A DNA stretch of 64,000 nucleotides from Komagataeibacter sp. FNDCR2 (GTDB taxonomy: Bacteria > Pseudomonadota > Alphaproteobacteria > Acetobacterales > Acetobacteraceae), in NCBI RefSeq assembly GCF_021295395.1, contig NZ_JAIWOU010000001.1, positions 251,001-315,000 on the forward strand, written 5' to 3'. Of this stretch, positions 35,058 to 52,473 are shown in pieces; positions within the stretch are counted from its first letter, which is position 1; the number at the start of each line of letters is the position of its first letter. The position numbers and the translations under genes were made by a program. The notes beneath the pieces were generated by a model. The model was not told where the DNA came from, made no database searches, and saw only the letters and a list, made by a program, of their open reading frames with translations.

Positions 35058-35762
35058 ATGACAAGCCAGATAAGTGACCCCCGCGAGGAACTGAAACGAC
35101 AGGCCGCGATCGAGGCCGCATCCATGGTTCAGGACGGCATGGTGGTCGGCCTGGGTTCGGGCACCACCTCCGCCTACATGATCGACGAACTGGGCCGGCG
35201 CTGGGCCGAAGGGCTGCGGTTTTCCGCCATCCCCACTTCGGAACGTTCGGCCGAGCAGGCCCGGTCGCACGGGATCAGGCTGGTGACATTCGCGGCCCAT
35301 CCCCGGATCGACCTTGATATCGATGGCGCGGATGAAGTGGAGATGGGCACGCTCAACCTGATCAAGGGGCGGGGCGGGGCGCTGTTTCGTGAGAAGATCG
35401 TGGCCGCGGCGTCGCGCCGGTTCGTGGTGGTCGTGGATGGAAGCAAGCTGGTCAAACGGCTTGGCCACCACATGCCCGTACCTGTGGAGGTGACAACCTT
35501 CGGCTGGGAAATGACGTCCGCCCGGCTGGAATCCCTTGGGGCGCGTGCGGTATTGCGGGTGGATCCGCAGGGTAAGCCATTCGTAACCGACGGTGGCAAC
35601 CTGATCCTGGATTGCAATTTCGGGGAAATCGCGGATTCCGTGGCGTTGGCAAGGCGGATCCGCTCCATTGTGGGCGTGATTGAAAGTGGCCTGTTCATTG
35701 GCCGTACGTCTGAAGTCATCGTCGCGGGTGAGGACGGCCTGAAGCATCTCACGGCCGGATAA
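35058..35762 (+). CDS. rpiA: Ribose-5-phosphate isomerase A
   Basis: About 234 residues from the ATG at 35058, the normal RpiA length. It interconverts ribose 5-phosphate and ribulose 5-phosphate. Visible are VGLGSGTTSAYMIDELG, IPTSERSAEQAR, DLDIDGADEVE (active-site Asp pair), LIKGRGGALFREKIVA and DGSKLVKRLG. AGGAA lies 7 nt before the chosen ATG. A longer form from GTG at 34977 would add 27 unconserved residues but would explain the overlap with pgl, so the start is not certain. Confidence 0.92.
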   Translation: MTSQISDPREELKRQAAIEAASMVQDGMVVGLGSGTTSAYMIDELGRRWAEGLRFSAIPTSERSAEQARSHGIRLVTFAAHPRIDLDIDGADEVEMGTLNLIKGRGGALFREKIVAAASRRFVVVVDGSKLVKRLGHHMPVPVEVTTFGWEMTSARLESLGARAVLRVDPQGKPFVTDGGNLILDCNFGEIADSVALARRIRSIVGVIESGLFIGRTSEVIVAGEDGLKHLTAG

Positions 35763-35767
35763 TAATC

Positions 35768-37237
35768 ATGTTTGTCGGGATAGATCTGGGCACATCGGCC
35801 CTGAAGGCCGTGCTGGTGGACGGCGCGCAGCAGGTGCTGGGCAGTTCCACCCAGCCGCTGCGGGTGAGTACCCCCCATACAGGCTGGAGCGAGCAGGCGC
35901 CACAGGACTGGTGGGCCGCGCTGATGGGCGCCATGGATGCGCTGGTGGCGGCTCACCCGCGGGAAATGGCCGGTGTAACCGGCATGGGCCTGTCGGGCCA
36001 GCAGCATGGCGCGGTCCTGCTGGATGGCCATGGCGAGGTGCTGCGGCCGTGCATATTATGGAATGACGAGCGTGCGGCGCGGGAATGTGCGGTGTTCGAA
36101 CGCAGGTTCCCCCGGAGCCGACAGGTCTGCGGCACTATCGCCATGCCCGGTTTTACCGCGCCCAAGCTGATATGGGTCGCGCGGCATGAGCCTGACATCT
36201 TTCACGCAACCCGCCATGTGCTGCTGCCCAAGGCCTGGCTGCGCTACCGCCTGAGCGGTGAGATGCTTGAGGACATGTCCGATGCATCCGGTTCGCTATG
36301 GCTGGATGTGGGGCAACGGCAATGGTCGCGTGAGGCTCTGGATGCGACGGGCCTTGCCCCGGCGAACATGCCCGCGCTGGTGGAAGGCACCGAGCGCGCG
36401 GGCTGGCTGGATCAGGATCTGGCCCGGCGCTGGGGCATGAAAACGCGCCCGGTTATCGCGGGCAGCGCGGGTGACAATGCGGCCGGTGCGGTCGGGCTGG
36501 GGGCGGTCGGGGCTGGGGCGTCCTTTCTGTCGCTGGGCACGTCAGGGGTTGTCTGGGTCACAACGGATCGCTTCCGGCCGCATCCGGATGGCGGCGTGCA
36601 TGCATTCTGCCATACCGTGCCGCGAACATGGCACCAGATGGGGGTGACGCTTTCGGCCGCGTCCTCGCTTGCTTGGTGGGCGCGGACAGCAGGCATGTCC
36701 ATCGCTGACCTTCTGGCCGAGCTGCCAGCGGCGGTGGAACGGCCATCGCCCGTGGTGTTCCTGCCCTATCTGTCCGGGGATCGCACGCCGCATAACGATG
36801 CTGACATACGCGGGGTATTCGCGGGCCTGTCGCATGATACAACCCGCGCGGACATGACACAGGCGGTGCTGGAGGGGGTGGCGTTCTCGTTTCGTGATGT
36901 TGTGGATGTGCTGGCGCAGGCCGGTTCCGCCATCACTCAGGCCGACGTGATCGGGGGCGGTTCACGTAGCGCCCTATGGGTTTCCATACTGTCCACGGTT
37001 ACCGGCCTGTCATTGCATAGGCTGGCGCATGGCGAGGTGGATGGCGCGTTTGGCGCGGCCCGGCTGGCACGTATTGCCGTGAGCGGGGAAAGTGTCACCG
37101 CAGTGTGCCTGCCACCGCAGCGCAAGGAAACCGTGGCCCCCGATCCCGCGCTGGGTGATGCCTATCATATCCAGCAGGCCCGTTATCGCGCCCTGTACCC
37201 GGCGATGCGCACGGCTTTTCCGCCCTGTGCGCCATGA
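35768..37237 (+). CDS. xylB: Xylulokinase (FGGY family)
   Basis: About 489 residues, typical of XylB. It phosphorylates D-xylulose to xylulose 5-phosphate, feeding transketolase. Motifs are MFVGIDLGTSALKAVLVD at the start (phosphate loop), GMGLSGQQHGAVLLD, WNDERAARE, GSAGDNAAGAVGLGAV, and VIGGGSRSALWVSIL in the C-terminal half. It starts 5 nt after rpiA and is probably the last gene of the operon. No xylose isomerase is in the window, so xylulose may come from arabitol or xylitol oxidation (inference). Confidence 0.93.
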   Translation: MFVGIDLGTSALKAVLVDGAQQVLGSSTQPLRVSTPHTGWSEQAPQDWWAALMGAMDALVAAHPREMAGVTGMGLSGQQHGAVLLDGHGEVLRPCILWNDERAARECAVFERRFPRSRQVCGTIAMPGFTAPKLIWVARHEPDIFHATRHVLLPKAWLRYRLSGEMLEDMSDASGSLWLDVGQRQWSREALDATGLAPANMPALVEGTERAGWLDQDLARRWGMKTRPVIAGSAGDNAAGAVGLGAVGAGASFLSLGTSGVVWVTTDRFRPHPDGGVHAFCHTVPRTWHQMGVTLSAASSLAWWARTAGMSIADLLAELPAAVERPSPVVFLPYLSGDRTPHNDADIRGVFAGLSHDTTRADMTQAVLEGVAFSFRDVVDVLAQAGSAITQADVIGGGSRSALWVSILSTVTGLSLHRLAHGEVDGAFGAARLARIAVSGESVTAVCLPPQRKETVAPDPALGDAYHIQQARYRALYPAMRTAFPPCAP

Positions 37238-37278: not shown

Positions 37279-38541
37279 TTATCCCGCCCGTCCGTCCATC
37301 CGGATCGGGGTGCGCACCATGGCCAGCGACAGCAGGGCCGCGACAATCAGGGCCAGCGCGCACATATACCATGCCATGTCGAAGCTGCCGGTCCATGAGA
37401 CGATATATCCGGTCAGGATGGGGGAGAGCAGCCCCAGCGAATTGCTGCATGTGAGTGTGACGCCCGTTACGGCACCCATCTTCCGCCCGTCTTCCACCAT
37501 GTCGGTCAGCAGCGCGGTATTGGCGCCATTGGCCGCGATCAGGCAGGCCAGCGCGCCGGACAGCACCAGCAGGATGGGTGTCATGGTATGGAAATGCGGC
37601 AGCAGCCCGATTGTCGCCGCCCCGACAAGGCAGGTGGCGACGACAAAACGCCGGTGCGGCGGGTGGATACCGTTGCGGAAGACGAAATGCTCCAGTATCC
37701 GCCCGATAATGACCGCGCCAATGGCCGCCACCAGATAGCACAGGGCCGTACTGTTGCCGGTGCCGGTAATGTTGATGTGCAGTTCATGGATAAGGTACAG
37801 CGGCATCCACGACATGACCAGGAAGTTCAGGTAATTCTGCGTACACTGCACCACCAGTATCCCGATGAAGGAGGATGAGCGGAACAGGTTGCGTATTTCC
37901 CCGATCGAGATGGGTTTGCGCCGTGGCGCGTCGGCTTTTTCCTCCGGGTCGCGGTAAACCAGCCACCAGACCAGCGCCCACGCGATACCGACACAGCCCA
38001 GCGCCATGAACTCAAAGCGCCAGCCAAAGAAGGTGATGAGATAGGCCCCCGCGATCGTGCCACCGGCCAGGCCAAGCTGCATGCCGGTCAGCAGTATGGT
38101 CATGACCGATCCCCGCTCCCTGGGCAGCGCCCAGTTACGCACGACGGTCGCCCCCACGCCAAAGGTCGGGGCTTCCCCCACGCCCAGCAGCATCCGGGTG
38201 AGCAGGAACTGCGTAATGTTCTGCACCATGCCGCCCAGCAGCATGGCGAACGACCACACCCCCACGGCCAGACTGCCGATGGCGCGCGCGCCCACCATGT
38301 CGAGCACGATGGTGGAAGGCAGGTTGAGCAGGAAATACGACCACAGGAAACTGGACGAGACCCAGCCCATCTGCACCGGCGTCAGGGAAAATTCCTTGCC
38401 CATTGTCGGCAGGGCGATGGACAGCGCGGCACGGTCGCCATAGCTGATGGCGTACATCAGGAAGACGAGGAAGAAGAACACGTAGCGGGCGGGAATAGCA
38501 CGCCTGCTTCGTGCGTCAGTGGCGGTTTCACCTGTTGTCAC
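37279..38541 (-). CDS. MFS transporter, anion:cation symporter (ACS) type
   Basis: About 420 residues with 12 hydrophobic spans. The N-terminal span reads ARYVFFFLVFLMYAISYGDRAALSIALP, followed by GWVSSSFLWSYFLLNLPS and GVGEAPTFGVGATVVRNW. This is the pattern of hexuronate, glucarate or organic acid uptake proteins (ExuT/GudP/phthalate group). Related carriers import sugar acids, which acetic acid bacteria produce in large amounts. It is convergent with xylB and upstream of an EamA gene. The exact substrate is open. Confidence 0.83.
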   Translation of the reverse strand: MTTGETATDARSRRAIPARYVFFFLVFLMYAISYGDRAALSIALPTMGKEFSLTPVQMGWVSSSFLWSYFLLNLPSTIVLDMVGARAIGSLAVGVWSFAMLLGGMVQNITQFLLTRMLLGVGEAPTFGVGATVVRNWALPRERGSVMTILLTGMQLGLAGGTIAGAYLITFFGWRFEFMALGCVGIAWALVWWLVYRDPEEKADAPRRKPISIGEIRNLFRSSSFIGILVVQCTQNYLNFLVMSWMPLYLIHELHINITGTGNSTALCYLVAAIGAVIIGRILEHFVFRNGIHPPHRRFVVATCLVGAATIGLLPHFHTMTPILLVLSGALACLIAANGANTALLTDMVEDGRKMGAVTGVTLTCSNSLGLLSPILTGYIVSWTGSFDMAWYMCALALIVAALLSLAMVRTPIRMDGRAG

Positions 38542-38606: not shown

Positions 38607-39530
38607 TCATGGTGGGGTGCCCGTGGCCGCATCCATTGTTCCCTCGGCCACGATCTTGCGTTTCGCGGGGCGGTCATGGCGCAGCATCCACACGCCTGAG
38701 CCGATGATCAGCAGCCCACCCATCACCATGGCGATGCCGGGCATTTCCCCAAAGCCGAACCACCCGATGAGCGCGGCCCAAAGCAGCCCCGAATAGGCGA
38801 AGGGACCAATGGCTGAAACCTGTGCCGAGGCGAAGGCTTCGGTCTGCAGCACCTGCGCGATACCGGCGAAGGCCCCCACGGCGACAAGGCAGGCGGCCTC
38901 GGTCAGGCCGGGCGTAGTCCAGATGAAGGGCAGGGGCAGCGCGGTCATGACCGTCATCAGGATGGCCTGCCACAGGGCGATGGTGGTGCTGGATTCCGTG
39001 GCGGAAAGCTGGCGGATCTGCATGGTGGTCAGGGCGCCCACGGCCCCCTGCGCCAGCGCCATGAAATAGGCCCAGCTCGGGACGGCGCTGCCCGCGCCAT
39101 GCAGCAGCCCCTTGCCCAGCGCGACCACGATCACGCCGGAAAACCCGATCGAGACCGCAACCCACCGCTGGAGCGACGGCCGTTCATGCAGGAGCGGGAT
39201 GGACAGCAGGACCAGGAACAGTGGCTGCGTGTAGGACAGGACCTGCTGCTCCGCCAGTGGCAGGCGCGTTACGGTTATCACCACCATGATCATGCTGACC
39301 AGCCCGACAACCGAGCGCAGCACATGGCCCCCGAAATGATGTGTTTTCAGTACAATGCCCGTGCGCGCCGCGATCAGCAGCACGAAGGGCAGGGAAAACA
39401 GGTTTCGGAAGAAAATGATCTCAAGGGCGGGAAGGCTCGATCCTGTCAGTTTCTGCAGGGCATTGAGGGCGGCGGTAAAAAACGTCGCCGATGCCAGAAG
39501 GAGTGCCCCACGTTTCAGGTCATGCTTCAT
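38607..39530 (-). CDS. DMT-superfamily transporter (EamA domains)
   Basis: About 307 residues with ten predicted membrane spans forming two EamA halves. Typical stretches are LQKLTGSSLPALEIIFFRNLFSLPF in the first half and FAYSGLLWAALIGWFGFGEMPG in the second. Members export amino acids or metabolites, or import S-adenosylmethionine in some bacteria. It is transcribed in the same direction as the neighbouring MFS gene. No specific cargo can be named. Confidence 0.82.
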   Translation of the reverse strand: MKHDLKRGALLLASATFFTAALNALQKLTGSSLPALEIIFFRNLFSLPFVLLIAARTGIVLKTHHFGGHVLRSVVGLVSMIMVVITVTRLPLAEQQVLSYTQPLFLVLLSIPLLHERPSLQRWVAVSIGFSGVIVVALGKGLLHGAGSAVPSWAYFMALAQGAVGALTTMQIRQLSATESSTTIALWQAILMTVMTALPLPFIWTTPGLTEAACLVAVGAFAGIAQVLQTEAFASAQVSAIGPFAYSGLLWAALIGWFGFGEMPGIAMVMGGLLIIGSGVWMLRHDRPAKRKIVAEGTMDAATGTPP

Positions 39531-39697: not shown

Positions 39698-40465
39698 TCA
39701 GTCCCCAAGCTCGCAGGCCGGGGTCAGCACGCCGCCGCTGACCTCGATTTCCGCGCGGATGGCGCGGGCCAGTTCCAGTGAACCGGGGGTGTCGCTATGT
39801 ACCAGAATGGACCGGGCCCTGACCGGCAGGCGCGTGCCGTCGATGGTCGTGACGGACCCATCGTGCAGGAACTGGTTCACGCGGGCCCGTACGGATGCCA
39901 GATCATGGATGACCGCACCGGGCTGCCCGCGCGGAACCAGCGTGCCCTGTGTCGTATATGCCCGGTCGGCCAGGAACAGGGTCCGTGCCCGCAGCCCGGC
40001 TTTTTCAGCGGCCCGTTCCGTTGCCTGACCGGGCATGCAGAACACGCTCAGTTCCCGGTCCAGCGCGGCGATGGCGCGGGTCAGGCGCAGGGCGAGGGCT
40101 TCATCCGCATTGGCCATGTTACCGAACGCGGCATGGTAGCTGACATGCGTCACCCGATGGCCGTGGCGCGCGGCAATGCCCTGCAGGGCGCCGATCTGGT
40201 AGCACAGCATGGATTCCATATCCGCATCGGATACGGCCATGGCGCGCCGCCCGAAACCGGTCAGGTCCGGCAGGCCGGGATGTGCGCCGATACCAACGCC
40301 CTTTTCCTTCGCCAGCCGCACGGTGCGGTCCATGATGGCGTAGTCACCCGCATGGAAACCGCAGGCGATATTGGCCGAGGAGACGGTATCCATCAGCCCG
40401 TCATCATCGGCAATGCGCCAGCGGCCAAAGCCTTCGCCCATGTCGGAATTGAGGTCGATCTTCAT
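39698..40465 (-). CDS. pxpA: 5-oxoprolinase subunit PxpA (LamB/YcsF family)
   Basis: About 255 residues, the normal LamB/YcsF length. Family motifs are KIDLNSDMGEGFGRW at the N terminus, ANIACGFHAGDYAIMDRTVRLA, GVGIGAHPGLPDLTGFGRR, and the C-terminal VHSDTPGSLELARAIR. With PxpB and PxpC it forms the ATP-dependent 5-oxoprolinase of many bacteria, which opens pyroglutamate to glutamate. It overlaps pxpC by 4 nt. Because biotin carboxylase subunits lie on the other side of this locus, a role with a biotin-dependent carboxylase is also possible (inference). Confidence 0.9.
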   Translation of the reverse strand: MKIDLNSDMGEGFGRWRIADDDGLMDTVSSANIACGFHAGDYAIMDRTVRLAKEKGVGIGAHPGLPDLTGFGRRAMAVSDADMESMLCYQIGALQGIAARHGHRVTHVSYHAAFGNMANADEALALRLTRAIAALDRELSVFCMPGQATERAAEKAGLRARTLFLADRAYTTQGTLVPRGQPGAVIHDLASVRARVNQFLHDGSVTTIDGTRLPVRARSILVHSDTPGSLELARAIRAEIEVSGGVLTPACELGD

Positions 40466-41472
40466 GCCTTGTCTCCAGACTTTACACCAGTGCGGCGGCG
40501 GGCGGATGCGCGGTAATGGGCAACCATCATGCGCAGGTCGTCAAGATAGGCGTTGACCGGCCGCATGGCCGCGACACCCTGTTCGAAGCTGCATTCATGC
40601 AACTGGATGCGCGTGCCGATACGCGCCTGCGCCAGACGCCACAGGTCGGCTTCGATCACGGTGGCGATGCGGGGATAGCCGCCAACGGTATTGGCGTCGG
40701 CCAGTTGCACGATCGGCTCGCCCGCGGGCGGAACCTGCACGATACCGGCAACGACACCGTAGGAACGCAGCTCCACCCGATGGCGCAGCTCAAGCGGTTC
40801 GCCCGTCAGACGGTAGCCCACGCGATTGCTCTGGGGTGTGATGCGCCACTGGGTGTTCCACAGGCGTTCCTGTGCCTCAGGCGTAAAAAGCCCGTAATCG
40901 GTCGCTGTCATGGCGCGCAGGTGGATGAGCTTGCTGTCATCCTGCCCGGCTACGGTATCCAGAACCGTAGTGGGGGGAAGGGCGCCATAACCCGAGACCT
41001 CGGGCGGGGCGCCAGTAATTTCCAGCGTGTCACCCGCCTCCAGCGGGCGGCCGTCCAGCCCGCCAAAGCCGCCACGTAGCTGCGTGCTGCGCGAACCCAG
41101 CACAACCGGCACCTCGATCCCGCCCGTAACGCAGATATAGCCGCGCGCACCTTTTCGGGGTGGTCCCACGCGAAGTTCCTGCCCTGCCGCCGCCGTTGCG
41201 ACCATCCATGGCAGGATGGTCAGGCCATCAAGCTCGATCACGGCGTCGATGCCGGTCACTACAAAGCTGGTCGCCGCGTCAAATCGCAGGGCGAACGGAT
41301 AGGTCTGGAGCTCGATGCAGGCATCATCGACCTCATTGCCCAGCAGGATATTGCCCACCTGCAAGGCAAGGGGGTCCATCACCCCCGATGTGCCCACGCC
41401 GAGATCACGGTAACCGGGGCGACCCAGATCCTGCACCGTGTTCAGGGCTGATGTTTCAAGGATCGTAATCAC
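40462..41472 (-). CDS. pxpC: PxpC / biotin-dependent carboxyltransferase family subunit (KipA-like)
   Basis: About 336 residues, an AHS2-type domain. Features are ALNTVQDLGRPGYRDLGVGTSGVMDPLALQVGN at the N terminus, CVTGGIEVPVVLGSRST, and SNRVGYRLTGEPLE. It is homologous to one half of the carboxyltransferase part of urea carboxylase, and in other bacteria it is the C subunit of 5-oxoprolinase. The ATG overlaps the pxpB stop by 4 nt, and its own stop overlaps pxpA, so the three are strictly co-translated. Confidence 0.9.
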   Translation of the reverse strand: MITILETSALNTVQDLGRPGYRDLGVGTSGVMDPLALQVGNILLGNEVDDACIELQTYPFALRFDAATSFVVTGIDAVIELDGLTILPWMVATAAAGQELRVGPPRKGARGYICVTGGIEVPVVLGSRSTQLRGGFGGLDGRPLEAGDTLEITGAPPEVSGYGALPPTTVLDTVAGQDDSKLIHLRAMTATDYGLFTPEAQERLWNTQWRITPQSNRVGYRLTGEPLELRHRVELRSYGVVAGIVQVPPAGEPIVQLADANTVGGYPRIATVIEADLWRLAQARIGTRIQLHECSFEQGVAAMRPVNAYLDDLRMMVAHYRASARRRTGVKSGDKA

Positions 41473-42161
41473 AGCTCTATGCTTTCCGGATAAAAGCGGA
41501 TGCGGTCGCCAACGGCAAACAGGGCGGGCGGCTGCCTGTCGGGATCAAACAGGCGCAACTCCGTATAACCGATGGAATTCCATCCATTAGGCCCGGTCAG
41601 CGCGGAAATGCCAGCCTGCATGCCGCCGATGATGACCGTCCCGGCCTGCATGTTCAGCGACGGCACGGTCTTGCGGGGCGTTGCGATGCGCGGATCCAGC
41701 CCGTGCAGGTACCCAAAGCCCGGCGCGCTGCCTATGGCGCAGACCGTGTACTCGCTGCCATGGTGGATGGAAATCACCTCCTGCGGCGGCAGGCCTGCAT
41801 GGGCGCAGACCGCTGCAAGATCTTCACCCAGCGCGCCACCGTAGCGCACGCCGATTTCAAACAGGCGGCCCTCGATATGCCGTTCGGGCAGGGTGTCCCA
41901 TGCATGGCGCAGCCACTCGGCCACGGCTTCGGGGCTTGCGGGCGGGGCGGAAAAGACCAGCATGAGGTTGGTCACGCCGGGAATAAGCTCCCGCACGTCG
42001 GGCCGGGCCCGCGCCGCGTCCATCAGTGCCCAGATGCGGCGCTGATGGGCCATGGTAAAATCACCCGGCGCCTCGAACAGCATGGCGCGCGTGCCGATCA
42101 TGCTTATGGCAGGAGCCGCACCTGTATCGCGCTCCACATCGTTCTTCATATCCGTGTTCAA
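41469..42161 (-). CDS. pxpB: PxpB / KipI-like carboxyltransferase family subunit
   Basis: About 230 residues of the AHS1 (KipI) family. Conserved elements are HHGSEYTVCAIGSAPGFGYLHGLD, ATPRKTVPSLNMQAGTVIIGGMQAGISAL, and the C-terminal GPNGWNSIGYTELRLFDPDRQPPALFAVGDRIRF. It is the other half of the urea-carboxylase-type carboxyltransferase and pairs with PxpC. It is the first gene of the pxpB-pxpC-pxpA operon. The N-terminal ~25 residues vary in the family, so the start could be a few codons further in. Confidence 0.9.
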   Translation of the reverse strand: MNTDMKNDVERDTGAAPAISMIGTRAMLFEAPGDFTMAHQRRIWALMDAARARPDVRELIPGVTNLMLVFSAPPASPEAVAEWLRHAWDTLPERHIEGRLFEIGVRYGGALGEDLAAVCAHAGLPPQEVISIHHGSEYTVCAIGSAPGFGYLHGLDPRIATPRKTVPSLNMQAGTVIIGGMQAGISALTGPNGWNSIGYTELRLFDPDRQPPALFAVGDRIRFYPESIEL

Positions 42162-42561
42162 AATACACAGTCCCTGGAACAGTGCTGGTTCATGCCCTGA
42201 AAATGGCCGGCTCCGGCATTGATCCAGAACCGTAACGATACAAGTCTCGCGGCATCATGTGCCTGCCCTGAAAGTATGGGCGTTTGCGTAACGATAGCCA
42301 GCACAATTCTGGTTGTGAGGCTATCGGATAATCTTATGGATCAAGGTGCTAGTTGTTTGGTCCCGGGATTTGATCGGGGCAGATACGCCATGGCGGCGTC
42401 ACGACCACGCACGCCGCCTGAGACTGCCCGCAGGTCTGGTGGGAACAGGGCGGCAGGGTGTCTGAAAACCCTTTTGCAGGGCAGGTGTGAGAGGCCTGTT
42501 GCGGCAGGCCACTCCGCATTCGGCGTTATGTCCGGGCCGTGAGATATGTTCGCCAGCCCGG
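42162..42561. other. Intergenic region upstream of pxpB
   Basis: This 400-nt gap separates the pxpB start from the end of the Sel1-repeat gene, both on the minus strand. It must contain the pxp promoter. A 107-codon plus-strand frame here has no recognisable features and no good ribosome site. I see no mobile element remains. Confidence 0.4.
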
Positions 42562-43959
42562 TCAGTGGGCATTCTGGCGGGCTCGTGTTTTCAGGAACAG
42601 AGTCCACCAGTACTGGCTCTGGGCCTTGTCAATCGGTGCCGTGCCGTCCGGGACGTTGGTGCCGCTATAAACTAGGCTAAGGTCTCGCATTGCCTCGATG
42701 TTGTTGCCGTCTGCCGCTTTCTTCAGCAGTTCAATACCCTTGGCCGGATTGGCTTCTTCCCTGGGCATGCCGATCCGCATTACATAGTCCCAACCGGCCT
42801 TCTGCATGCCGACGACATTGCCGACATCGGTGGCTTTCAGATACATCCGGAGGCTTTTGGCGGAAGGGTTCTCGATATACAAAGGGTTGCTTGCGTACCA
42901 GTCCCCGGCCGCCACCATGGCATCGGAACTTCCGGTATTGGCGGCCTGTATATAAAGTTCTTCTGCTATTTCTTTGCCTTTTGGTCCACCTACGATGAAC
43001 AGGTTGTCGCTGTCATAAAAATTCGCCAACTCGATTAGTGCCGCTGCATTTCCGGTTCTGGCGGCCTGCAGGAAATATTTGCTCGCGAGGGAATCATCTC
43101 TCGCCGTTCCGCCGATCCCGTGGTAGTAGAACCAGCCCAGCCGGTCCATTGCATCCGCATCACCGGCGGCGGCAGCTTTTGTGTACCACTCCTTCGCTGC
43201 GGCGTAGTCCTGCATCACGTTCATGCCCTGCTCATAGGACCGGCCGATTTCGTACATGGTTCTGGCATCGGTCTGTGGCACACCTTCCATGCCCGGGACC
43301 GGAGGCGGCGGTGTTGGCTGCGATGGCGCCGGAGCGGGGACTGCCGGAAGTGCATCCGCCGCGGCTTTCGGCTTCTGGTGATCGGGCTCGTTCAGGTAGG
43401 TATCGTCCTGTGTGAACGGGGCGGGCAGGTTATCAAGGTGCTGTGAGAGAACGCAGTCCCGTTTCATCGCCTTCATGGCGAAATAGGCCTTTGTCAGGTC
43501 CACCTTCCATGTCTGGCTCACGGGTGCCGAGATCGTCAGGGTGAGCACCCTTGCATCGGACAGGGAGCGGACCAGACCGGGAAGATCCTTCGCGTCCACA
43601 ACGTGACTGACAGTGCCCGCATTGGCTGAGACAGCGGAAGCATAGCGCAGGGATGGGGTGTCATCGAATTTCATGTCAACAGTAACGTTGGCGTGATCAA
43701 GGGTGGAAGTCTTGTAGGCGGCATTGATAAGTAGGATCGCAACCTTGTTGTCATCGGAAGCCTGCACGGCAAAGCCAGCGCCCTCGGCAACCTTGGCCAC
43801 GACGGTACATGAGCGAACGCCGTTGTCCGAACCGCCATAAACCATCCAGGGATCGATATATTCCTCGGCAATGCGGGATATTCCTGCTCGTGCGTCGCTT
43901 GCGATTATCGTAGTGCATGCAAGTGTGGCCAATAGCACGAAAGAAAAAGGCAGTTTCAT
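42562..43959 (-). CDS. Exported Sel1-repeat (TPR-like) protein
   Basis: About 465 residues. A signal peptide (hydrophobic residues ~4-19, cleavage after DARA) leads to a ~180-residue N-terminal domain I do not recognise. A Pro-rich linker follows (PVPGMEG region), then Sel1 repeats from about residue 235: MYEIGRSYEQGMNVMQDYAAAKEWYTKAA, AMDRLGWFYYHGIGG, LIELANFYDS and related blocks to near the end. Such repeats mediate protein contacts, often at the envelope. AGGTGA precedes the ATG at 43959. It lies between two halves of a carboxylase-like locus, with which it has no obvious link. Confidence 0.75.
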   Translation of the reverse strand: MKLPFSFVLLATLACTTIIASDARAGISRIAEEYIDPWMVYGGSDNGVRSCTVVAKVAEGAGFAVQASDDNKVAILLINAAYKTSTLDHANVTVDMKFDDTPSLRYASAVSANAGTVSHVVDAKDLPGLVRSLSDARVLTLTISAPVSQTWKVDLTKAYFAMKAMKRDCVLSQHLDNLPAPFTQDDTYLNEPDHQKPKAAADALPAVPAPAPSQPTPPPPVPGMEGVPQTDARTMYEIGRSYEQGMNVMQDYAAAKEWYTKAAAAGDADAMDRLGWFYYHGIGGTARDDSLASKYFLQAARTGNAAALIELANFYDSDNLFIVGGPKGKEIAEELYIQAANTGSSDAMVAAGDWYASNPLYIENPSAKSLRMYLKATDVGNVVGMQKAGWDYVMRIGMPREEANPAKGIELLKKAADGNNIEAMRDLSLVYSGTNVPDGTAPIDKAQSQYWWTLFLKTRARQNAH

Positions 43960-44353
43960 CAAGTCACCTGATCAGGTCTGTGCCTCCGGGCTGGCCGGAA
44001 GGATGGAGAAAGCCGTGGTATGATAACCATGACGCGCCCTGATGACGAGACTGCTTGGCGAACCGGATATTATTATCGGTCAGGATGGTATGGACCTGAA
44101 AGGGCACGACACGCAGAATATGGCGATGCGGCACGGAGCGTGCCTGATACAGTTGGATATGCTGATGAAAGGTGCATGTCATCGCTTCGCCTGCCCCGTG
44201 CAGGGACGGTAAGCGCGGTTTTCTGGACCAGCCTTCTGGTCCTTCCGCCACAGCGTACCATATTGCCATGACGTATCCATTCCATGGAGGTGTTACTTAA
44301 AAATTGTGGAATGTAATGTCATGGCGAGGCGTATCATTTATCAATATTCAAAT
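43960..44353. other. Intergenic region, no gene recognised
   Basis: A 394-nt gap between two minus-strand genes of unknown function. It should hold the Sel1-protein promoter. Several frames of about 70-100 codons are open but none looks like a protein. The right end (44280-44350) becomes AT-rich and merges into the atypical gene that follows. Confidence 0.4.
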
Positions 44354-45142
44354 TCAGTTTTTCCCGATAATCTGTTTGTAAGAAAACTCGATCATGGAAA
44401 TGCCTGAGTTCGATCTGTTGGCTATGTCCATCGCCTGCGCCAGGGCCGAAGTATTAATGCCTTCATGGCTGTATGCGTATTTCAGGTTGAGATAGGCGTC
44501 ATAGTCCTGCGACAATACAAAATTGACCTCGTTATAATCAACAACTCCCCTTTTGGTCCATTTTGCGGTCTGGGAATCAAACAGGGGTTTCCCCCAGGAA
44601 AAACCACCAATCTTCTGCGCTGTTTCTACAAGTCTGGCGTAACCTTCCCTTTCCTCATTGATGCAGTAATTCTCCATTTCCTGGTCGAGAACCCCTCTCT
44701 TGGTCCACTGTTCCGCACATGACTGGTTCGTGGCGGCTGCATCATACGGGTACATTTCAATACGATCAGGACCCGGCAACTCATCAAGGAAAGCTTTGGC
44801 GGAACTGTCGGTACTTTGGGGCTGCGCCGACGCCATGACTGGCTGCTGCAACCCGGTAGCGGTTTTTATGGTGTGCTGGTGTAAACTGGAAATAAAGACC
44901 GCAATTATAAATATAATACCTATTATAGATCCAACCGAATAGAAAATGAATTGAAGAATTTTCACGATAAAGGGTCTCACAGCAACAATGTGCGATGGGA
45001 TACCAGATAATCCGGCCGCCTTGAACAGATTTTTGTGGGGTCGGGTGTAGGGATCTGCTTGGATATGCCGCGCTCGCTCCAGCGGATGAACCGGATATGG
45101 AATATCTTGCGTGGCCCCAACCCTCGGGGCGCGCCCTTTCAC
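44354..45142 (-). CDS. Unrecognised single-span membrane protein with an internal repeat
   Basis: About 262 residues and no family that I recognise. A cytoplasmic N terminus of ~55 residues is followed by one hydrophobic segment (residues ~60-86). After that comes a soluble part with two copies of a repeat opening WTKRGV at residues 146 and 195. Within each copy, Asn follows about 10 residues later and Tyr-x-x-Leu further on. The spacing of 49 residues suggests duplication of a small helical unit. The GTG start at 45142 has AAGGA 5 nt upstream. Base composition is lower in GC than in the surrounding genes, which may mean recent acquisition. It lies just beyond the Sel1-repeat gene and may belong with it, but no function can be given. 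Confidence 0.6.
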   Translation of the reverse strand: MKGRAPRVGATQDIPYPVHPLERARHIQADPYTRPHKNLFKAAGLSGIPSHIVAVRPFIVKILQFIFYSVGSIIGIIFIIAVFISSLHQHTIKTATGLQQPVMASAQPQSTDSSAKAFLDELPGPDRIEMYPYDAAATNQSCAEQWTKRGVLDQEMENYCINEEREGYARLVETAQKIGGFSWGKPLFDSQTAKWTKRGVVDYNEVNFVLSQDYDAYLNLKYAYSHEGINTSALAQAMDIANRSNSGISMIEFSYKQIIGKN

Positions 45143-45356
45143 TGCAATCCTTCATAGAGAACTGAAATACATATGGATCATATCGTAAGGTGGTCTGGTC
45201 CAGCGGGGTTATCGTATTATGTTATGGCGTGAGAACGAAGTGCTCTTGGCGCGCGTTGGACGTGCTCGTTAGCATGGGATGAATATTTGAGCATCCGGCA
45301 TCCATTCAGGGGCCGGGTGATGTTGTTTCTCTAGTTCAGGATCGGGTTTTCTTACC

Positions 45357-46112
45357 ATGGGCAACCAGCCGTATCGTACCGCTCTCGTCACTGGCGCATC
45401 CTCCGGCATCGGGGCGGCGATTGTCCGCCGGCTGGCGGCGGAAGGGATTGAAGTGCATGCCGTGGCGCGTGACGCGGCGCGGCTGGAAAAACTGGCGCAG
45501 GAGACCGGCTGTATCGCGCATGCGGTCAGCGTGTCCGACCAGGCCGGGATCGAAGCCCTGATCAGCGATCTCGAGATTGACGTGCTGGTCAACAATGCCG
45601 GGCAGTCGCGCACGGGCAACATCGCCAACACCACGCCGGAGGATATCGACGCGCTGGTGGATGTGAACCTGCGCGCGGTGCTGCAGCTTACACGGCTGGT
45701 GGTGGCGGGCATGATCGCGCGCGACCGGGGGCATATCGTCAACATCACCTCCATTGCCGGGCATTATGCCTTTGCCGGTGGCAACACCGTCTATCATGCC
45801 ACCAAGGCCGGTGTGCATTCGCTGTCGCAGCAACTGCGCTGCGATCTGTTCGGACGCCACATCCGCGTGACCGAAGTCTCGCCCGCGCGCGTGGAGACCG
45901 AAGTGTTCGGCCGCCTGATCGGCAATATGGAAGAGGCGAAGAAGCGTTTCTTTGACGAATATGATTCCCTGCTGCCCGAGGATATCGCCAACTCCGTGGC
46001 CTTTGCCGTCATGGCGCCGCAGCGCATGAATGTCAGCTTCATGGAAGTGCTGCCGACCATGCAGGTGGTGGGCGGCCTGAACTTCGCCAAGAAGACAGCC
46101 GGCGCGGCGTGA
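45357..46112 (+). CDS. Short-chain dehydrogenase/reductase (SDR)
   Basis: About 251 residues, a classical SDR. The cofactor loop is TGASSGIGAAIVRRLA, the structural motif is NNAGQSR, and the catalytic residues are Ser in ITSIAGHYAF and the YxxxK of YHATKAG. It most resembles the YdfG/serine 3-dehydrogenase branch, which oxidises 3-hydroxy acids with NADP. Its stop overlaps the GTG start of the biotin carrier gene, so it is co-translated with the carboxylase subunits and probably acts in the same pathway (inference). Its substrate is unknown. Confidence 0.87.
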   Translation: MGNQPYRTALVTGASSGIGAAIVRRLAAEGIEVHAVARDAARLEKLAQETGCIAHAVSVSDQAGIEALISDLEIDVLVNNAGQSRTGNIANTTPEDIDALVDVNLRAVLQLTRLVVAGMIARDRGHIVNITSIAGHYAFAGGNTVYHATKAGVHSLSQQLRCDLFGRHIRVTEVSPARVETEVFGRLIGNMEEAKKRFFDEYDSLLPEDIANSVAFAVMAPQRMNVSFMEVLPTMQVVGGLNFAKKTAGAA

Positions 46113-46561
46113 GAGCGGTGGATCTCACGCATGTCAGGCGGCTGATCGACCTGCTGGCCCATGCCCCGGTAACGGAGCTTGAGGTGGAGGAAGGCGGCTG
46201 CCGCATCCGCATCACCCGCGGGGGCGCGCCATCGGCAGCCCCGGCCACACCCACCACGCCGGTCGTGAGCGTGGCCCCCGTGCCGGTGGAGGCCGCCCTT
46301 CCGGCGGCATTGCCCGACGCGGTGGCGGAGACGGTCATCACGGCGCCCTCCTACGGGGTGTTCCACCTCTCGCCATCTCCCGGCGCGGCGCCTTACGTCA
46401 TTGTGGGGCAGGTCGTGCAGGTCGGGCAGGAAGTGGGGCTGGTCGAGGCCATGAAGGTGTTCAATGCGGTTCGCGCCACGGCTGCGGGCGAGATCGCGGC
46501 CGTGCTGGTGGAAGACGGCACGGAAGTGGAGGCAGGCACCCCCCTGTTCCGACTGGCATGA
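46109..46561 (+). CDS. Biotin carboxyl carrier protein (AccB-like)
   Basis: About 150 residues, AccB size. An N-terminal helical segment and an Ala/Pro/Thr-rich linker (residues ~38-75) lead to the biotinyl domain. The domain has the biotinylation motif EAMKV with Lys at 116, and continues [33 protein letters not shown]. The GTG start overlaps the SDR stop, and its own stop overlaps the carboxylase ATG. It would carry carboxybiotin between the carboxylase encoded next and a carboxyltransferase. No AccA/AccD is present here, and PxpB/PxpC are the nearest candidates. Confidence 0.88.
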
Positions 46562-47925
46562 GTGAGATCCCACGCTTCAGCCGGGTGCTGATCGCCAATC
46601 GCGGCGAGATCGCCCTGCGCATCCAGCGCGCCTGCCGCCAGCTCGGGCTTGAGACGGTGGCCGTGCATTCCGAGGCCGATGCCGACAGCCGCCATGTGCA
46701 CGAGGCCGATATGGCCCTGTGCATCGGTCCCGCCGCCGCGGCCCGCAGCTATCTCGACCCCGACGGGCTGCTGCTTGCCGCCCGCCTGACGGGCGCGCAG
46801 GCCATCCATCCCGGTTATGGTTTCCTGTCGGAAAATGCTGATTTTGCCGATGCGGTGGAAGCTGCCGGCCTGACCTTCATCGGGCCGACAGGGGCGTCCA
46901 TCCGCATGATGGGCGACAAGATCACCGCCAAGCGCGCCATGCGCGAGGCCGGGGTGCCCTGCGTGCCCGGTTCGGACGGGCCGCTGCCCGCCGATATGGA
47001 CGCGGTGAAGGCCATTGCGCTGCAGGTGGGCTTTCCGGTCATCGTCAAGGCTTCGGGCGGTGGTGGCGGGCGCGGCATGCGTGTGGTCGAGCGTGAGGCG
47101 GACCTGGCGCAGGCGGTCACGCTCACGGCCAAGGAGGCCCAGCAGGCCTTTGGCAACCCGACGCTGTATCTCGAACGCTTCATGCAGAAGCCGCGCCATA
47201 TCGAGATTCAGGTGCTGTGCGACACGCACGGCACGGCGCTATGGCTGGGCGCGCGCGACTGCTCCTTGCAGCGCCGCCACCAGAAAGTGCTGGAGGAAGC
47301 CTCCGCCCCCGGCATCGCCCCCGAGACGATTGCCCAGATCGGCGAACGCTGCGCCGAGGCCTGCCGCCGCATCGGCTACCGGGGCGCGGGGACGTTCGAA
47401 TTCCTGTATGAGGACGGTGTCTTCGCCTTTATCGAGATGAACACCCGCGTACAGGTCGAACACCCCATTACGGAAGAGACGACGGGCATCGACATCGTGG
47501 CCCAGCAACTGCGCATTGCCCAGGGCGAACCGCTTGGCATCGCGCAGGCGGACATCGGGCTGCTGGGGCATTCCATTGAATGCCGCCTCAATGCCGAGGA
47601 CCCGTTCACCTTCATGCCCTCGCCGGGCACCATCACGCGTTGGGACCTGCCCGGTGGCCCGGGAATCCGGGTCGATACGCATGTGGTGGCGGGCTATACG
47701 GTGCAGCCTTATTATGACTCGCTGATCGGCAAGATCATCAGTCATGGCGCCACACGTGCGCAGGCGATCGCGCGGATGCGGGTGGCGCTGGCGGAAATGC
47801 GGGTGGAAGGGGTCTCGACCAATATCGCCCTGCATCAGGACCTGCTGGCGGACCCACAGTTCCAGCGCGGCGGGGTTGATATCCATTACCTTGAACGCTG
47901 GCTTGCGCAAAGGACGGCCCCATGA
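46558..47925 (+). CDS. Biotin carboxylase (AccC-like)
   Basis: About 455 residues, full-length AccC type. It carboxylates biotin on the carrier with ATP and bicarbonate. Motifs are [37 protein letters not shown], the ATP-grasp Gly-rich loop [31 protein letters not shown], and the catalytic [17 protein letters not shown]. It overlaps both neighbouring carrier-type genes by 4 nt. It is probably a second biotin carboxylase that is not for fatty acid synthesis, because its partners here are PxpB/C-like (inference). Confidence 0.92.
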
Positions 47926-48380
47926 ACACCCGGCCCGAACAACTGGTGCCCGCCTTTGACCGGCTGCCCGAGCCCGAACAGATCGCCCAGATGGCGACAT
48001 GGCTGGCGCAGGCGGGGCTCGACAGCCTCGAACTGTCGAATGAGGCAGCGGGGCTGAAGCTGCGCATCCGCGTGGGGCAGGCTGCTATAGCTGCGGTTTC
48101 CCCCACCGTTGCGGCCCCACCGGCGCAGGCCGGGACGGCGATGGTTGCGGTAAAGGCCCCGTATTTTGGCCATCTGTGCCTGACCCATCCGTTGCGTGAC
48201 GCGCCCTTCGCCCCAGTCGGGGCAAAGGTGGGGCAGGGGGACGTGGTGGCGCTGCTGACACTCGACACCCTGCAGGTTCCCGTGCCGGCGCCCGTGGCGG
48301 GTACGGTGGTGGATATCGTGGCCCAGCCCGACGCGTTGGTGGGTTATGGCGCGGTTATCCTGAACATCCAGCCTGACTGA
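47922..48380 (+). CDS. Biotin carrier-like protein lacking the biotinyl lysine
   Basis: About 152 residues with the AccB layout: an N-terminal helical part, an Ala/Pro linker (residues ~57-72), and a C-terminal lipoyl/biotinyl beta-sandwich ([19 protein letters not shown], then [22 protein letters not shown]). In an ungapped comparison with the neighbouring carrier, the EAMK tetrad is replaced by residues 113-116, TLDT. Thr therefore stands in place of the biotinylated Lys, and no other Lys is close. It cannot be biotinylated in the usual way and may be a structural or regulatory subunit (inference). It overlaps accC by 4 nt. Confidence 0.75.
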
Positions 48381-48563: not shown

Positions 48564-49766
48564 TTACTTCAGCCCGTCCACAAAGGCTGCGATCCGGCGG
48601 CAGCCTTCGCGCAGCGTGGCCGTGTCGGTGGCGTAGGAGATGCGGAAGAACGGGCTCATCCCGTAAGCCGCCCCCTGCACGGACGCCACCTGCTGTTCTT
48701 CCAGCAGCGCCATGACGAAGTCGGCGTCGGTAGCGATCAGTCGCCCCCCCGCCGAGGTCTTGCCCATGCAGGCACTGATGTCTGGATAGACATAGAACGC
48801 GCCCTGCGGCGTATGGCACTGCACGCCGGGAATGGCGTTGAGCAGGCTGACCACAAGGTCGCGCCGGGCCTGGTATTCGGCGGCACGGTCCTTCAGGTAA
48901 TCCTGCGGGCCGTTGAGTGCGGCCACGGCGGCTGCCTGCGCCAGCGTGTTGATGCCGCTGGTTGACTGGCCCTGCATGTTGTTCATGGCCGCGATCAGTT
49001 CACGCGGGCCGCCACAGTAGCCCACGCGCCAGCCGGTCATGGCATAGGCCTTGGACACGCCATTGACGGTCAGCACGCGGTCCTTGAGCCGTGGCTCGAC
49101 CTCGGCCAGCGTGCAGAAGGTGAACCCGTCATAGATCAGGTGTTCGTAGATATCATCGGTCATGATCCACACCTGCGGGTGCTTCAGCAGGACGGCGGCG
49201 ATGGCCTCCATGTCCGCGCGCGGGCAGCATGCGCCGGTCGGGTTGCCGGGGAAGTTGAGGACCAGCCATTTGGTCCTGGGCGTAATGGCGGCCTCCAGGG
49301 CTTCGGCCGACAGGCGAAAACCGCTTCCGGCGGGGCAGGGCACGGACACGATGCTGGCGCCGGCAAGGCGGGCGATGTCGGCATAGCTGATCCAGCTTGG
49401 GGTGGGCAGGACCACCTCGTCACCGGGGTTGATGGTGGCCATCATGGCGTCATAGATGATCTGCTTGGCGCCGTTGGCCACCAGGATCTCGTCAAGTGCG
49501 TAATCAAGGTGGTTCTCGCGCTGGAACTTGGCCTGCACCGCCTTCTTGAGCGCGGGCTTGCCGTCCTGCGGCGGGTATTTGGTGTCTCCCGCATGTGCCG
49601 CGGCAATGGCGGCTTCCACCACATGTCCGGGCGTGGGGAAGTCAGGTTCGCCCGAGGAGAGGCTGACGATCTTCAGCCCTTCGGCCTTCAGCACCGATGC
49701 CTTGTCGGTCATCGCGGCGGAAGCCGAAATCCCAATTCCATTCAGTCGATCCGCAAACCCAGGCAT
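48564..49766 (-). CDS. aspC: Aspartate aminotransferase (class I, PLP-dependent)
   Basis: About 400 residues, close to the AspC/AatA group of alphaproteobacteria. It interconverts aspartate and 2-oxoglutarate with oxaloacetate and glutamate. Motifs are SGEPDFPTPGHVVEAA, DEILVANGAKQIIYDAMMA, LNFPGNPTGACCPRADMEAI, MTDDIYEHLIYDG, and the Schiff-base VNGVSKAYAMTGWRVGY. GGAG lies about 10 nt before the ATG at 49766. It diverges from aspartase across 249 nt, so aspartate is handled on both sides. Members of this group may also accept prephenate. Confidence 0.9.
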   Translation of the reverse strand: MPGFADRLNGIGISASAAMTDKASVLKAEGLKIVSLSSGEPDFPTPGHVVEAAIAAAHAGDTKYPPQDGKPALKKAVQAKFQRENHLDYALDEILVANGAKQIIYDAMMATINPGDEVVLPTPSWISYADIARLAGASIVSVPCPAGSGFRLSAEALEAAITPRTKWLVLNFPGNPTGACCPRADMEAIAAVLLKHPQVWIMTDDIYEHLIYDGFTFCTLAEVEPRLKDRVLTVNGVSKAYAMTGWRVGYCGGPRELIAAMNNMQGQSTSGINTLAQAAAVAALNGPQDYLKDRAAEYQARRDLVVSLLNAIPGVQCHTPQGAFYVYPDISACMGKTSAGGRLIATDADFVMALLEEQQVASVQGAAYGMSPFFRISYATDTATLREGCRRIAAFVDGLK

Positions 49767-50015: not shown

Positions 50016-51518
50016 ATGACTAATATGCCCCTGCCCGCAAAAGATGCTGCGCCCCGCGTGCCCACGGGGCAGATGGCGCCTGCGGGGCAGGGGGACGGGC
50101 CGCCGCCCGGCAGCCGCATCGAGCGTGACCTGCTGGGTGAGGTCACGATTCCGGCTGGAGTCTTGTGGGGTGTGCATACAGGGCGCGCGGTTGAGAATTT
50201 TCCCATAAGCGGCACGACCATCGGTACGTTTGGGGAACTGGTTCAGGGGCTGGTGACCGTCAAGCAGGCGGCGGCAAGGGCCAATTTCGCCCTGGGCTAT
50301 CTGGACAGGACGCGCGCCGACGCCATCGAGGCCGCATGCGTGCGGATACGGGACAACCCCGCCTATCGTGACCAGTTCGTGGTGGACGCCATGCAGGGTG
50401 GGGCCGGTACTTCCACCAACATGAACGCCAATGAGGTCATTGCCAACGTGGCCCTTGGGCTGCTGGGCGAAAAACCGGGCGCGTATGCCGTGCTGCACCC
50501 CAACGACCATGTCAACATGGCGCAGTCCACCAATGATGTTTACCCAACCGCGCTCAGGCTGGGCATGCTGCTGGCGGTTGATCCGCTGGTGGCGGCGCTT
50601 GAGGGGCTGCTCGGAGCGCTGGATGAAAAGGCGCGGGCGTTCGGCGCGATCCTGAAGGTGGGCCGCACGCAGTTGCGTGATGCCGTGCCCATGACACTGG
50701 GGCAGGAATTCAGGGCTTTCCATACCGCCATCGCGACGGAAATCAGAAGCATAAAGGCGCATGCCACCGCTTTTGAGCAGGTCAATCTGGGGGGCACCGC
50801 CATTGGCACGGGGCTGAATACCGACCCGCGTTATGCCCCGACCGTCATGGCGGAGCTGCGCGCCCTGACCGGGCGGCCCATGACCGGTTCGCCGGACCTG
50901 ATCGAGGCGACATCCGATGTGGGGGCCTTTGTCCTCTTTTCCGGTGTGCTCAAGCGACTGGCGCTGAAGCTGTCCAAGATGTCCAGCGACCTGCGCCTGC
51001 TTTCCAGCGGGCCACGAGCAGGCCTGGGTGAAATCGTGCTGCCTGCGGTGCAGGCGGGATCCTCCATCATGCCGGGCAAGGTCAATCCCGTCATACCCGA
51101 GGCGGTCAACCAGGTGGCCTATCTTGTGGCCGGCCATGACCTGACCATTACCATGTGCGCCGATGGCGGCCAGTTGCAGCTCAATCCATTCGAGCCGATG
51201 ATTGGCTACTGCCTGTTCACGTCCATCAGGATTTTACGTGCGGCTACGGAAACCCTGACAACGCGGTGCATTAGCGGCATTTCAGCCGATCGGGAGCGTT
51301 GCCAGTATCTGTCCGGCATCAATATCGGGATCATCACGGCGCTGGTGCCGGTATTGGGTTATGATACCTGCTCGACCATTGCCAGGCGCGCGCTGGCGGA
51401 AAACCGCAAGGTGACTGACCTGATCGTGGAGGAGGAACTGCTCTCTCCCCAACGGCTGGCGGAACTGCTGCGCCCCGATGCGCTGACCAGCCCCAATGTG
51501 GGCAGGCAGGCAGGCTGA
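50016..51518 (+). CDS. aspA: Aspartate ammonia-lyase (aspartase)
   Basis: About 500 residues; a ~32-residue Pro/Ala-rich N-terminal extension precedes the conserved core SRIERDLLGEVTIPAGVLWGVHTGRAVENF. It reversibly splits aspartate into fumarate and ammonia. Family motifs are GGAGTSTNMNANEVIAN, HPNDHVNMAQSTNDVYPTA, GRTQLRDAVPMTLGQEF, and the catalytic-loop signature GSSIMPGKVNPVIPEAVNQ. The upstream ribosome site is weak, so an internal start near the core is possible. A LysR regulator gene is convergent with it 4 nt away. Confidence 0.92.
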   Translation: MTNMPLPAKDAAPRVPTGQMAPAGQGDGPPPGSRIERDLLGEVTIPAGVLWGVHTGRAVENFPISGTTIGTFGELVQGLVTVKQAAARANFALGYLDRTRADAIEAACVRIRDNPAYRDQFVVDAMQGGAGTSTNMNANEVIANVALGLLGEKPGAYAVLHPNDHVNMAQSTNDVYPTALRLGMLLAVDPLVAALEGLLGALDEKARAFGAILKVGRTQLRDAVPMTLGQEFRAFHTAIATEIRSIKAHATAFEQVNLGGTAIGTGLNTDPRYAPTVMAELRALTGRPMTGSPDLIEATSDVGAFVLFSGVLKRLALKLSKMSSDLRLLSSGPRAGLGEIVLPAVQAGSSIMPGKVNPVIPEAVNQVAYLVAGHDLTITMCADGGQLQLNPFEPMIGYCLFTSIRILRAATETLTTRCISGISADRERCQYLSGINIGIITALVPVLGYDTCSTIARRALAENRKVTDLIVEEELLSPQRLAELLRPDALTSPNVGRQAG

Positions 51519-51522: not shown

Positions 51523-52473
51523 TCAGGCGGAAGGCTGGGTTCCCGGCCAGTTATGCGAAGCGGCCATGGTTTTGGCCAGATCGATGAGCAGTTCGCGCAC
51601 CGCCACCGAGGCTTCTGTTTCAGGAATGATTTCGGGGATGCAGAGCGAAACATCTTCCTGAATGACGGGATTGCGCAGCGGATAGATGCGCGACTTGCCC
51701 GGCACGACAATCCGGCTGGCGACGGACCACGGCAGGATGGTGCTGCCAATGCCCTCTTCTATGGCGCCCTGCAGGGTAATCAGGGCCTCGATTTCGGCCA
51801 CGATGCACGGCTCAAGCTGTTTGCGCATGAAGGCCATGTCCACGCTCTTGCGGACAAAATTATGCTTGGGCGGCAGAAGCAGCGGGATGCCCGCTATGTC
51901 GGCCAGTTGCACCGCCCCGGTGCCGTCTTGCGGGAATTCCAGCGCATGGGGGGCGAGCAGGAAGAATTCCTCCTTCATCAGGGGGGTGAAGATCACACCC
52001 TTGATCGGCCCGGCGCCGTGGATGACGGCCATGTCCAGCCGCCCGGTCATGATCAGTTCGCTATAAATATCATCAAAACTTTCGGTCAGGTGCAGCGTAA
52101 TATTGGGCAGACGCTCCCGCACGCGCTGCAGCAGTTTGACCGAAAGCGTGGAGCCCGCACTATAGGGTGACAGCCCGACCGAGACCTTGCCCACCAGCGG
52201 GCCGGATCCGTGGCTGATTTCAACCATGGCCCGGTCGAACTGTTTGGTCAGGGTCTGGGCATGCCGGTACAGTTCCGCCCCGGCGGTGGTGGGGGTGACA
52301 CCGCTCTTGCTCCGGATGACAAGCTTCTGTTTGAAGACGTTTTCAAGTGTTGCCAGTTGTTGGCTCAGTGCGGGCTGGGCAATATTGAGCAGGTCGGCCG
52401 CACGGGAAATGCTGCCAAGATCGATGATTTTGATAAAAGCCTGCAGTCGCCGTATATCCAACTGGAACTCCAT
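51523..52473 (-). CDS. LysR-family transcriptional regulator
   Basis: About 316 residues. The N-terminal winged helix-turn-helix occupies residues ~6-65 (RRLQAFIKIIDLGSISRAADLLNIAQPALSQQLATLE), and the rest is the effector-binding domain, starting at VGKVSVGLSPYS. It resembles Nac-type nitrogen assimilation regulators in general pattern. It ends 4 nt from the aspartase stop, so it may control aspA or aspC, though LysR genes usually regulate the divergent neighbour. The divergent neighbour here is the TonB receptor gene 366 nt away. Confidence 0.88.
   Translation of the reverse strand: MEFQLDIRRLQAFIKIIDLGSISRAADLLNIAQPALSQQLATLENVFKQKLVIRSKSGVTPTTAGAELYRHAQTLTKQFDRAMVEISHGSGPLVGKVSVGLSPYSAGSTLSVKLLQRVRERLPNITLHLTESFDDIYSELIMTGRLDMAVIHGAGPIKGVIFTPLMKEEFFLLAPHALEFPQDGTGAVQLADIAGIPLLLPPKHNFVRKSVDMAFMRKQLEPCIVAEIEALITLQGAIEEGIGSTILPWSVASRIVVPGKSRIYPLRNPVIQEDVSLCIPEIIPETEASVAVRELLIDLAKTMAASHNWPGTQPSA

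Follow-up and report, generated by a model that had tools for sequence, protein, structure and literature searches.

PxpABC homologs and biotin carboxylase genes in a conserved locus with a dissected, urea-carboxylase-like architecture

The genome of Komagataeibacter sp. FNDCR2 carries a seven-gene locus in which homologs of the 5-oxoprolinase proteins PxpA, PxpB and PxpC occur with a biotin carboxylase (AccC), a biotin carboxyl carrier protein (BCCP), a second BCCP-like protein that we call the pseudo-carrier, and a short-chain dehydrogenase/reductase (SDR). We analyzed it within a 64,000-nucleotide stretch of contig NZ_JAIWOU010000001.1 (C1:251001-315000 of the 3.29 Mb genome; hereafter the window). 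A dissected, urea-carboxylase-like architecture is well supported for this locus, and we judge the chances to be about even that its products, as their sequences suggest, form one multi-subunit, biotin-dependent enzyme: a hydrolase that opens an amino-acid derivative, either a lactam or an amide, after activating it by carboxylation, so as to obtain nitrogen. The original prediction, a dissected urea-carboxylase-like enzyme, held for the architecture, to which both gene conservation and the title of PDB entry 9yx5 speak; the invariant lysine of urea carboxylase is an arginine in PxpB.

The locus is neither a plain urea carboxylase nor shown to be a plain 5-oxoprolinase. It falls outside the former because its parts are not fused and the carboxyltransferase (CT) lysine is missing, and it does not qualify as the latter because PxpC scores too low against the PxpC equivalog and residues invariant in the canonical PxpA and PxpB proteins used for comparison are replaced. 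PxpBC is built like the CT of urea carboxylase, yet is assumed to phosphorylate 5-oxoproline; loci that pair PxpBC with their own biotin carboxylase make this question of mechanism testable.

Gene content and conservation of the locus

The seven genes form two divergent halves, with 4-base overlaps between adjoining genes inside each (pxpBCA; SDR-BCCP-AccC-pseudo-carrier):

39698..40465, minus strand: PxpA homolog (LamB/YcsF), proposed hydrolase; NF003814 333 bits, cut-off 226
40462..41472, minus strand: PxpC homolog, CT subdomains A/B; TIGR00724 290 bits, cut-off 230; Pfam CT_A_B
41469..42161, minus strand: PxpB homolog, CT subdomains C/D; TIGR00370 169 bits, cut-off 145.6; Pfam CT_C_D
45357..46112, plus strand: SDR oxidoreductase; best family YdfG-type 3-hydroxyacid dehydrogenase, 165 bits, cut-off 411
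46109..46561, plus strand: BCCP with EAMK; TIGR00531 108.3 bits, below cut-off 115.2
46558..47925, plus strand: AccC, biotin carboxylase of a clade of its own; TIGR00514 649.7 bits, cut-off 626.5
47922..48380, plus strand: pseudo-carrier, full-length BCCP homolog without the biotin-accepting lysine

Family matches thus place the AccC-like, PxpB, PxpC, EAMK-carrier, PxpA and SDR genes where the original prediction had read them, and the parts correspond, as it had said, to the domains of urea carboxylase. Both CT subdomain families (PF02626 for A/B, PF02682 for C/D) score above their Pfam cut-offs, and the same Pfam scan gave no match to an ATP-binding domain in PxpB or PxpC. PxpC passes the broader family TIGR00724 and reaches 276.2 bits against the PxpC equivalog NF045499, under its 500-bit cut-off. 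Measured by the acetyl-CoA carboxylase families, AccC exceeds its equivalog cut-off and BCCP does not; six motifs that we take to be those of biotin carboxylases were all located in AccC.

The expectation that no AccA/AccD partner would be present was also borne out: ACCA and carboxyl-transferase matches were sought genome-wide and none lies near the locus, the ACCA match being at C1:2652975-2653901 and the sole other carboxyl-transferase match at C1:2007705-2008217. The genome also holds a second accBC (C1:2058955-2060516), whose AccC is 59% identical to that of the window, and a fused urea carboxylase of 1228 aa (C1:2409382-2412912).

The pseudo-carrier gene was not on the original list of parts. 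Its product has the carrier fold and is related to AccB over its full length, and a lysine stands at the biotin-accepting column in 0 of 94 homologs, a count that depends on the alignment. A conserved carrier homolog without the biotin lysine would be an unusual component for a biotin enzyme; its role is probably to dock PxpBC to the AccC/carrier pair or to help assemble the two.

We scanned named genomes by PxpC alignment and examined the best 80 loci among the matches listed, which are thus close relatives of the query (the closest PxpC proteins, from Komagataeibacter species, are 82-83% identical). Genes were called from longest open reading frames (ORFs) and identified by home-made profiles whose score limits were set by hand; presence counts are therefore approximate at the margin. 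PxpB was found in all 80 loci, PxpA in 78, the pseudo-carrier in 77, BCCP in 71, AccC and the aminotransferase in 70 each, and the SDR in 69. AccC, BCCP and pseudo-carrier occurred together with PxpC in 68 loci, and the complete seven-gene set lay nearby in 61. The binomial value for this survey, 6.7e-16, presupposes a background of 2%. Among the hosts are Rhizobium, Agrobacterium, Sinorhizobium, Bradyrhizobium, Paraburkholderia, Variovorax, Pseudomonas, Erwinia and Acetobacteraceae. The two halves therefore co-occur in many genomes, contrary to one of the two refuting conditions set out with the original prediction, and conservation of the gene set across loci rules out a chance neighborhood.

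No AccC profile match was obtained in 10 of the 80 loci. In two of these (L122, L157) the contig ends too early, in L139 only the first part of the carrier and the last part of AccC are left, and L158 has a partial AccC match; L099 has carrier and pseudo-carrier with AccC absent, and the remaining five (L095, L101, L134, L161, L162) have no AccC by profile. The three loci without a pseudo-carrier by profile are L095, L134 and L139. A further locus (L053 of genome G020, 6300-10540) keeps pxpA, pseudo-carrier, AccC, carrier and SDR in a genome with no PxpB/PxpC match; judged by eye, we read it as a damaged locus. Beside it lie a shortened LysR gene and transposase-like ORFs, recognized by eye without a family search. 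Two Bradyrhizobium loci (L087, L165) have two PxpBC copies around a single AccC, carrier, pseudo-carrier and PxpA.

In the window, pxpB and the SDR gene are separated by some 3 kb. In seven relatives (L047, L048, L049, L084, L085, L086, L098) the same genes diverge from a spacer of 318-394 bp, and parts of each of these spacers match the window at both flanks of an insertion of ~2.86 kb (roughly 42344-45201). Two remnants were delimited by blastn with the spacers of the seven relatives:

42162..42343, no strand: pxpB-side remnant of the ancestral divergent promoter spacer
45202..45356, no strand: SDR-side remnant of the ancestral divergent promoter spacer

Because these relatives have a short divergent spacer, both ends of which persist in the window, the two halves belong together, and the idea of unrelated halves on either side of the gap is ruled out. 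More distant relatives (e.g., L054) carry all seven genes on one strand in the order accB-accC-pxpB-pxpC-carrier 2-pxpA-SDR. The insertion carries a Sel1-repeat gene at 42562-43962 and, at 44354-45142, a gene that matches no family and was found in this genome and one other among 19 genomes of the genus. Scans for promoters and terminators between 42100 and 45400 yielded 5 and 4 sites, respectively; shuffled sequences gave 3.3 and 3.1.

Locus types and replaced residues

To describe the variety of Pxp loci, we call those without AccC type I and those of the window's kind type IV. A sample of 199 Pseudomonadota genomes contained CT_A_B in 81, from which 76 stand-alone PxpC loci were fetched, leaving aside fused urea carboxylases, the contig-edge fragment G123 and the window. 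AccC lay within ~7 kb in 19 of the 76, in several arrangements. Five loci form type II (L206, L207, L210, L213, L216), with pxpA, a short carrier, AccC, pxpB and pxpC; the carrier was detected in four of them and has EVMK in three. Eleven form type III (L220, L227, L228, L235, L236, L238, L239, L240, L244, L250, L257), in which AccC and carrier are apparently one frame beside pxpA and, in 10 of 11, a PxpC frame of at least 537 aa is apparently fused to PxpB. L232 shows one further AccC-linked arrangement. The profile used detected no pseudo-carrier in types II and III.

Our trees were quick ones, with SH-aLRT support only and several type I rows on long branches. On the joined PxpC and PxpB tree (118 rows), type IV is a single clade of 37 rows (SH-aLRT 100), and linkage to AccC requires four changes when type IV rows without a local AccC are scored as linked. 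Type IV AccC likewise forms one clade (SH-aLRT 99; 26 rows representing 22 genes, four of them entered twice), apart from the AccC proteins that we labeled housekeeping by position and identity: 13 of these 14 group together, and L281 falls beside type IV.

Residues that are conserved in type I are mostly replaced in both the hydrolase and the CT of type IV. PxpA K109 (49/49 in type I) is S in 84 and K in 4 of 95 type IV proteins, and PxpA E163 (also 49/49) is L in 56, T in 24 and E in 4; the window has S109 and L163. PxpB F145 (56/56 in type I) is S in 93 of 99 type IV proteins, and R168 (48/56) is S in 58, V in 30 and R in 7, with S145 and S168 in the window. These joint replacements suggest, at the level of sequence, an altered substrate or chemistry; they speak against plain 5-oxoproline as the substrate, while still being compatible with it.

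Proposed reaction, substrate and alternative explanations

In the reaction that we propose, AccC would carboxylate the biotin of the EAMK carrier at the expense of ATP and bicarbonate, and the carrier would bring the carboxyl group to the PxpB/PxpC carboxyltransferase for placement on the amide nitrogen of the substrate. Hydrolysis of this activated N-carboxy intermediate by PxpA would then yield an amino acid and CO2, a step resembling that of allophanate hydrolase after urea carboxylase. Nitrogen could be released by the aminotransferase and, here, by an aspartase-like enzyme, and the carbon skeleton is a possible substrate of the SDR. That such subunits can associate has a precedent: by its title and chain names, 9yx5 is the M. 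smegmatis long chain acyl-CoA carboxylase complex with MSMEG_0435-MSMEG_0436 bound, and it holds PxpB and PxpC homologs together with an AccA3 subunit. This entry shows that PxpBC-type proteins can bind a biotin carboxylase complex; carboxyl transfer is no part of what it shows.

Several findings weigh against such an enzyme. The C/D subdomains of urea carboxylase contain one lysine that is invariant in 24 of 24 proteins and is the sole invariant lysine of the CT domain, none of the invariant polar A/B columns being lysine; in type IV PxpB this position is Arg in 99 of 99 (R163 in the window). The same position is Arg in 55 of 56 proteins of type I and in all 11 of type III. The column likely corresponds to K1605 of K. 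lactis urea amidolyase, named the likely general base (PMC5770610), although our own estimate of the position was 1576. Because all five type II PxpB proteins keep Lys at this general-base column, type II loci look, by sequence, more like a genuine urea carboxylase in dissected form than the window locus does. We know of no activity for any type IV locus. At 57 of the 76 stand-alone loci no AccC lies within ~7 kb of PxpC, and in seven genomes that carry a type IV locus a single AccC was found (E <= 1e-130); therefore, a dedicated carboxylase is not indispensable. Four of these seven have a pseudo-carrier (L101, L161, L162, L217). Furthermore, 9yx5, known here by its title and chain names, is from another lineage, PxpBC is assumed to phosphorylate 5-oxoproline (PMC13274462), and ATP hydrolysis by co-purified PxpB and PxpC is mentioned, citing others (PMC8453981).

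The genes around the locus bear on the substrate. In the window they are:

48564..49766, minus strand: aspartate-transaminase-like aminotransferase, conserved neighbor
50016..51518, plus strand: aspartate ammonia-lyase-like gene, neighbor in acetic acid bacteria
51523..52473, minus strand: NAC-like LysR regulator, conserved neighbor; 297 bits, cut-off 309
38607..39530, minus strand: EamA-type transporter, neighbor in acetic acid bacteria
37279..38541, minus strand: MFS transporter, neighbor in acetic acid bacteria

Across 93 loci whose neighboring proteins were clustered by blastp, an aminotransferase (82 loci) and a NAC-like LysR regulator (73) were frequent, as were the ATPase (69), binding protein (63) and permease (63) of an amino-acid ABC transporter. 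An RraA-type aldolase or oxaloacetate decarboxylase was found in 36 loci and a D-2-hydroxyacid dehydrogenase in 21. Acetic acid bacteria have the aspartase-like enzyme and the MFS and EamA transporters instead. This neighborhood fits nitrogen use of an amino-acid-like compound. We considered 5-oxoproline, hydantoins and, because of the RraA-type aldolase, 4-substituted pyroglutamates; the substrate may be 5-oxoproline itself, and a relative of 5-oxoproline is more likely. Such a compound could be a nitrogen source for many rhizobia, Burkholderiales, pseudomonads and acetic acid bacteria. Farther left of the locus, at 31822-37237, ORFs judged by eye resemble a sugar-phosphate cluster (glucose-6-phosphate dehydrogenase, phosphatase, 6-phosphogluconolactonase, ribose-5-phosphate isomerase, xylulokinase-like), and the window contains no tRNA genes.

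A bolder version, which we put forward tentatively and regard as rather unlikely, is a biotin enzyme of a new kind: a seven-gene, carboxylation-activated lactam hydrolase for an amino-acid-like substrate beyond urea and plain 5-oxoproline, with a carrier look-alike that never carries biotin at its core; by extension, PxpBC would generally be a biotin-dependent carboxyltransferase that borrows the AccBC of the cell where a dedicated pair is lacking. If true, general carboxyl transfer by PxpBC would overturn the phosphorylation mechanism assumed for prokaryotic 5-oxoprolinase.

The alternative that survives best, and that we hold to be possible though doubtful, is an ordinary 5-oxoprolinase: PxpABC would activate 5-oxoproline by the assumed phosphorylation and hydrolyze it, with accBC serving another step and linked by co-regulation only. 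PxpA and PxpB of the window do exceed their curated cut-offs, the many PxpC loci without a nearby AccC fit this explanation, and both B. subtilis and C. glutamicum need canonical PxpABC to grow on 5-oxoproline, the genes of the latter being described as a pxpTABC operon (PMC13274462). The reported ATP hydrolysis by PxpBC points the same way; neither it nor growth on 5-oxoproline decides whether the biotin carboxylase of the host participates. Opposed to an ordinary 5-oxoprolinase are the persistence of AccC, BCCP and pseudo-carrier beside PxpC in most of the best loci, the PxpC equivalog score, and the replacement in most type IV proteins of the type I-invariant PxpA K109 and E163 and PxpB F145.

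It is improbable that the locus is instead a regulatory module, in which PxpBC and the pseudo-carrier would attach to a biotin carboxylase complex and adjust it to the nitrogen supply, carboxylating no substrate of their own. The PxpBC homologs bound to an acyl-CoA carboxylase complex in 9yx5, the pseudo-carriers in four of the seven single-AccC genomes and the adjoining NAC-like regulator would all suit such a role; however, a regulator of the housekeeping acetyl-CoA carboxylase has no need of the dedicated AccC/BCCP pair seen in 68 of the best 80 loci, and PxpA, the SDR and the aminotransferase resemble metabolic enzymes. Least probable is that accBC is a mere second half of acetyl-CoA carboxylase using the cell's AccA/AccD, beside pxp for historical reasons: AccC does pass the accC equivalog cut-off with 59% identity to its counterpart, and the genome offers one AccA and one further carboxyl-transferase match, but the pxp linkage is conserved in many genera, other Pxp types are AccC-linked as well, BCCP is under its cut-off, and the separate AccC clade and the lack of AccA/AccD nearby led us not to favor this explanation alone.

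Comparison with known systems

In the literature searched, mostly at the level of titles and the beginnings of abstracts, AccBC and PxpABC were nowhere treated as one enzyme. A study of L. pentosus reports an extra BC/BCCP (biotin carboxylase and carrier) pair and pxpB/pxpC as separate findings (PMC12427679), and a 2011 paper, which gives no functional data on them, describes two adjacent genes that each resemble one half of the CT domain of urea carboxylase (PMC3199775).

Urea carboxylase and urea amidolyase (K. lactis, PDB 3va7 and 5i8i) combine BC, CT and BCCP in one polypeptide, whereas the corresponding parts are separate genes here; the locus further differs in the Arg at the invariant lysine, in having PxpA instead of allophanate hydrolase, and in the extra pseudo-carrier. 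Like the PxpABC 5-oxoprolinase of E. coli (YbgJK/YbgL; 5dud, 1xw8), it holds pxpA, pxpB and pxpC together; unlike that system, it has an AccC, a carrier and a pseudo-carrier of its own, with PxpA K109 and E163, PxpB F145 and often R168 replaced. It shares with 9yx5 the pairing of PxpBC homologs with a biotin carboxylase, although a complex here is read from the genes, and the M. smegmatis enzyme is of the acyl-CoA kind, with BC and BCCP in the single chain of AccA3. Type II and type III Pxp loci resemble the window in that AccC and, in most cases, a carrier adjoin pxpA, pxpB and pxpC.

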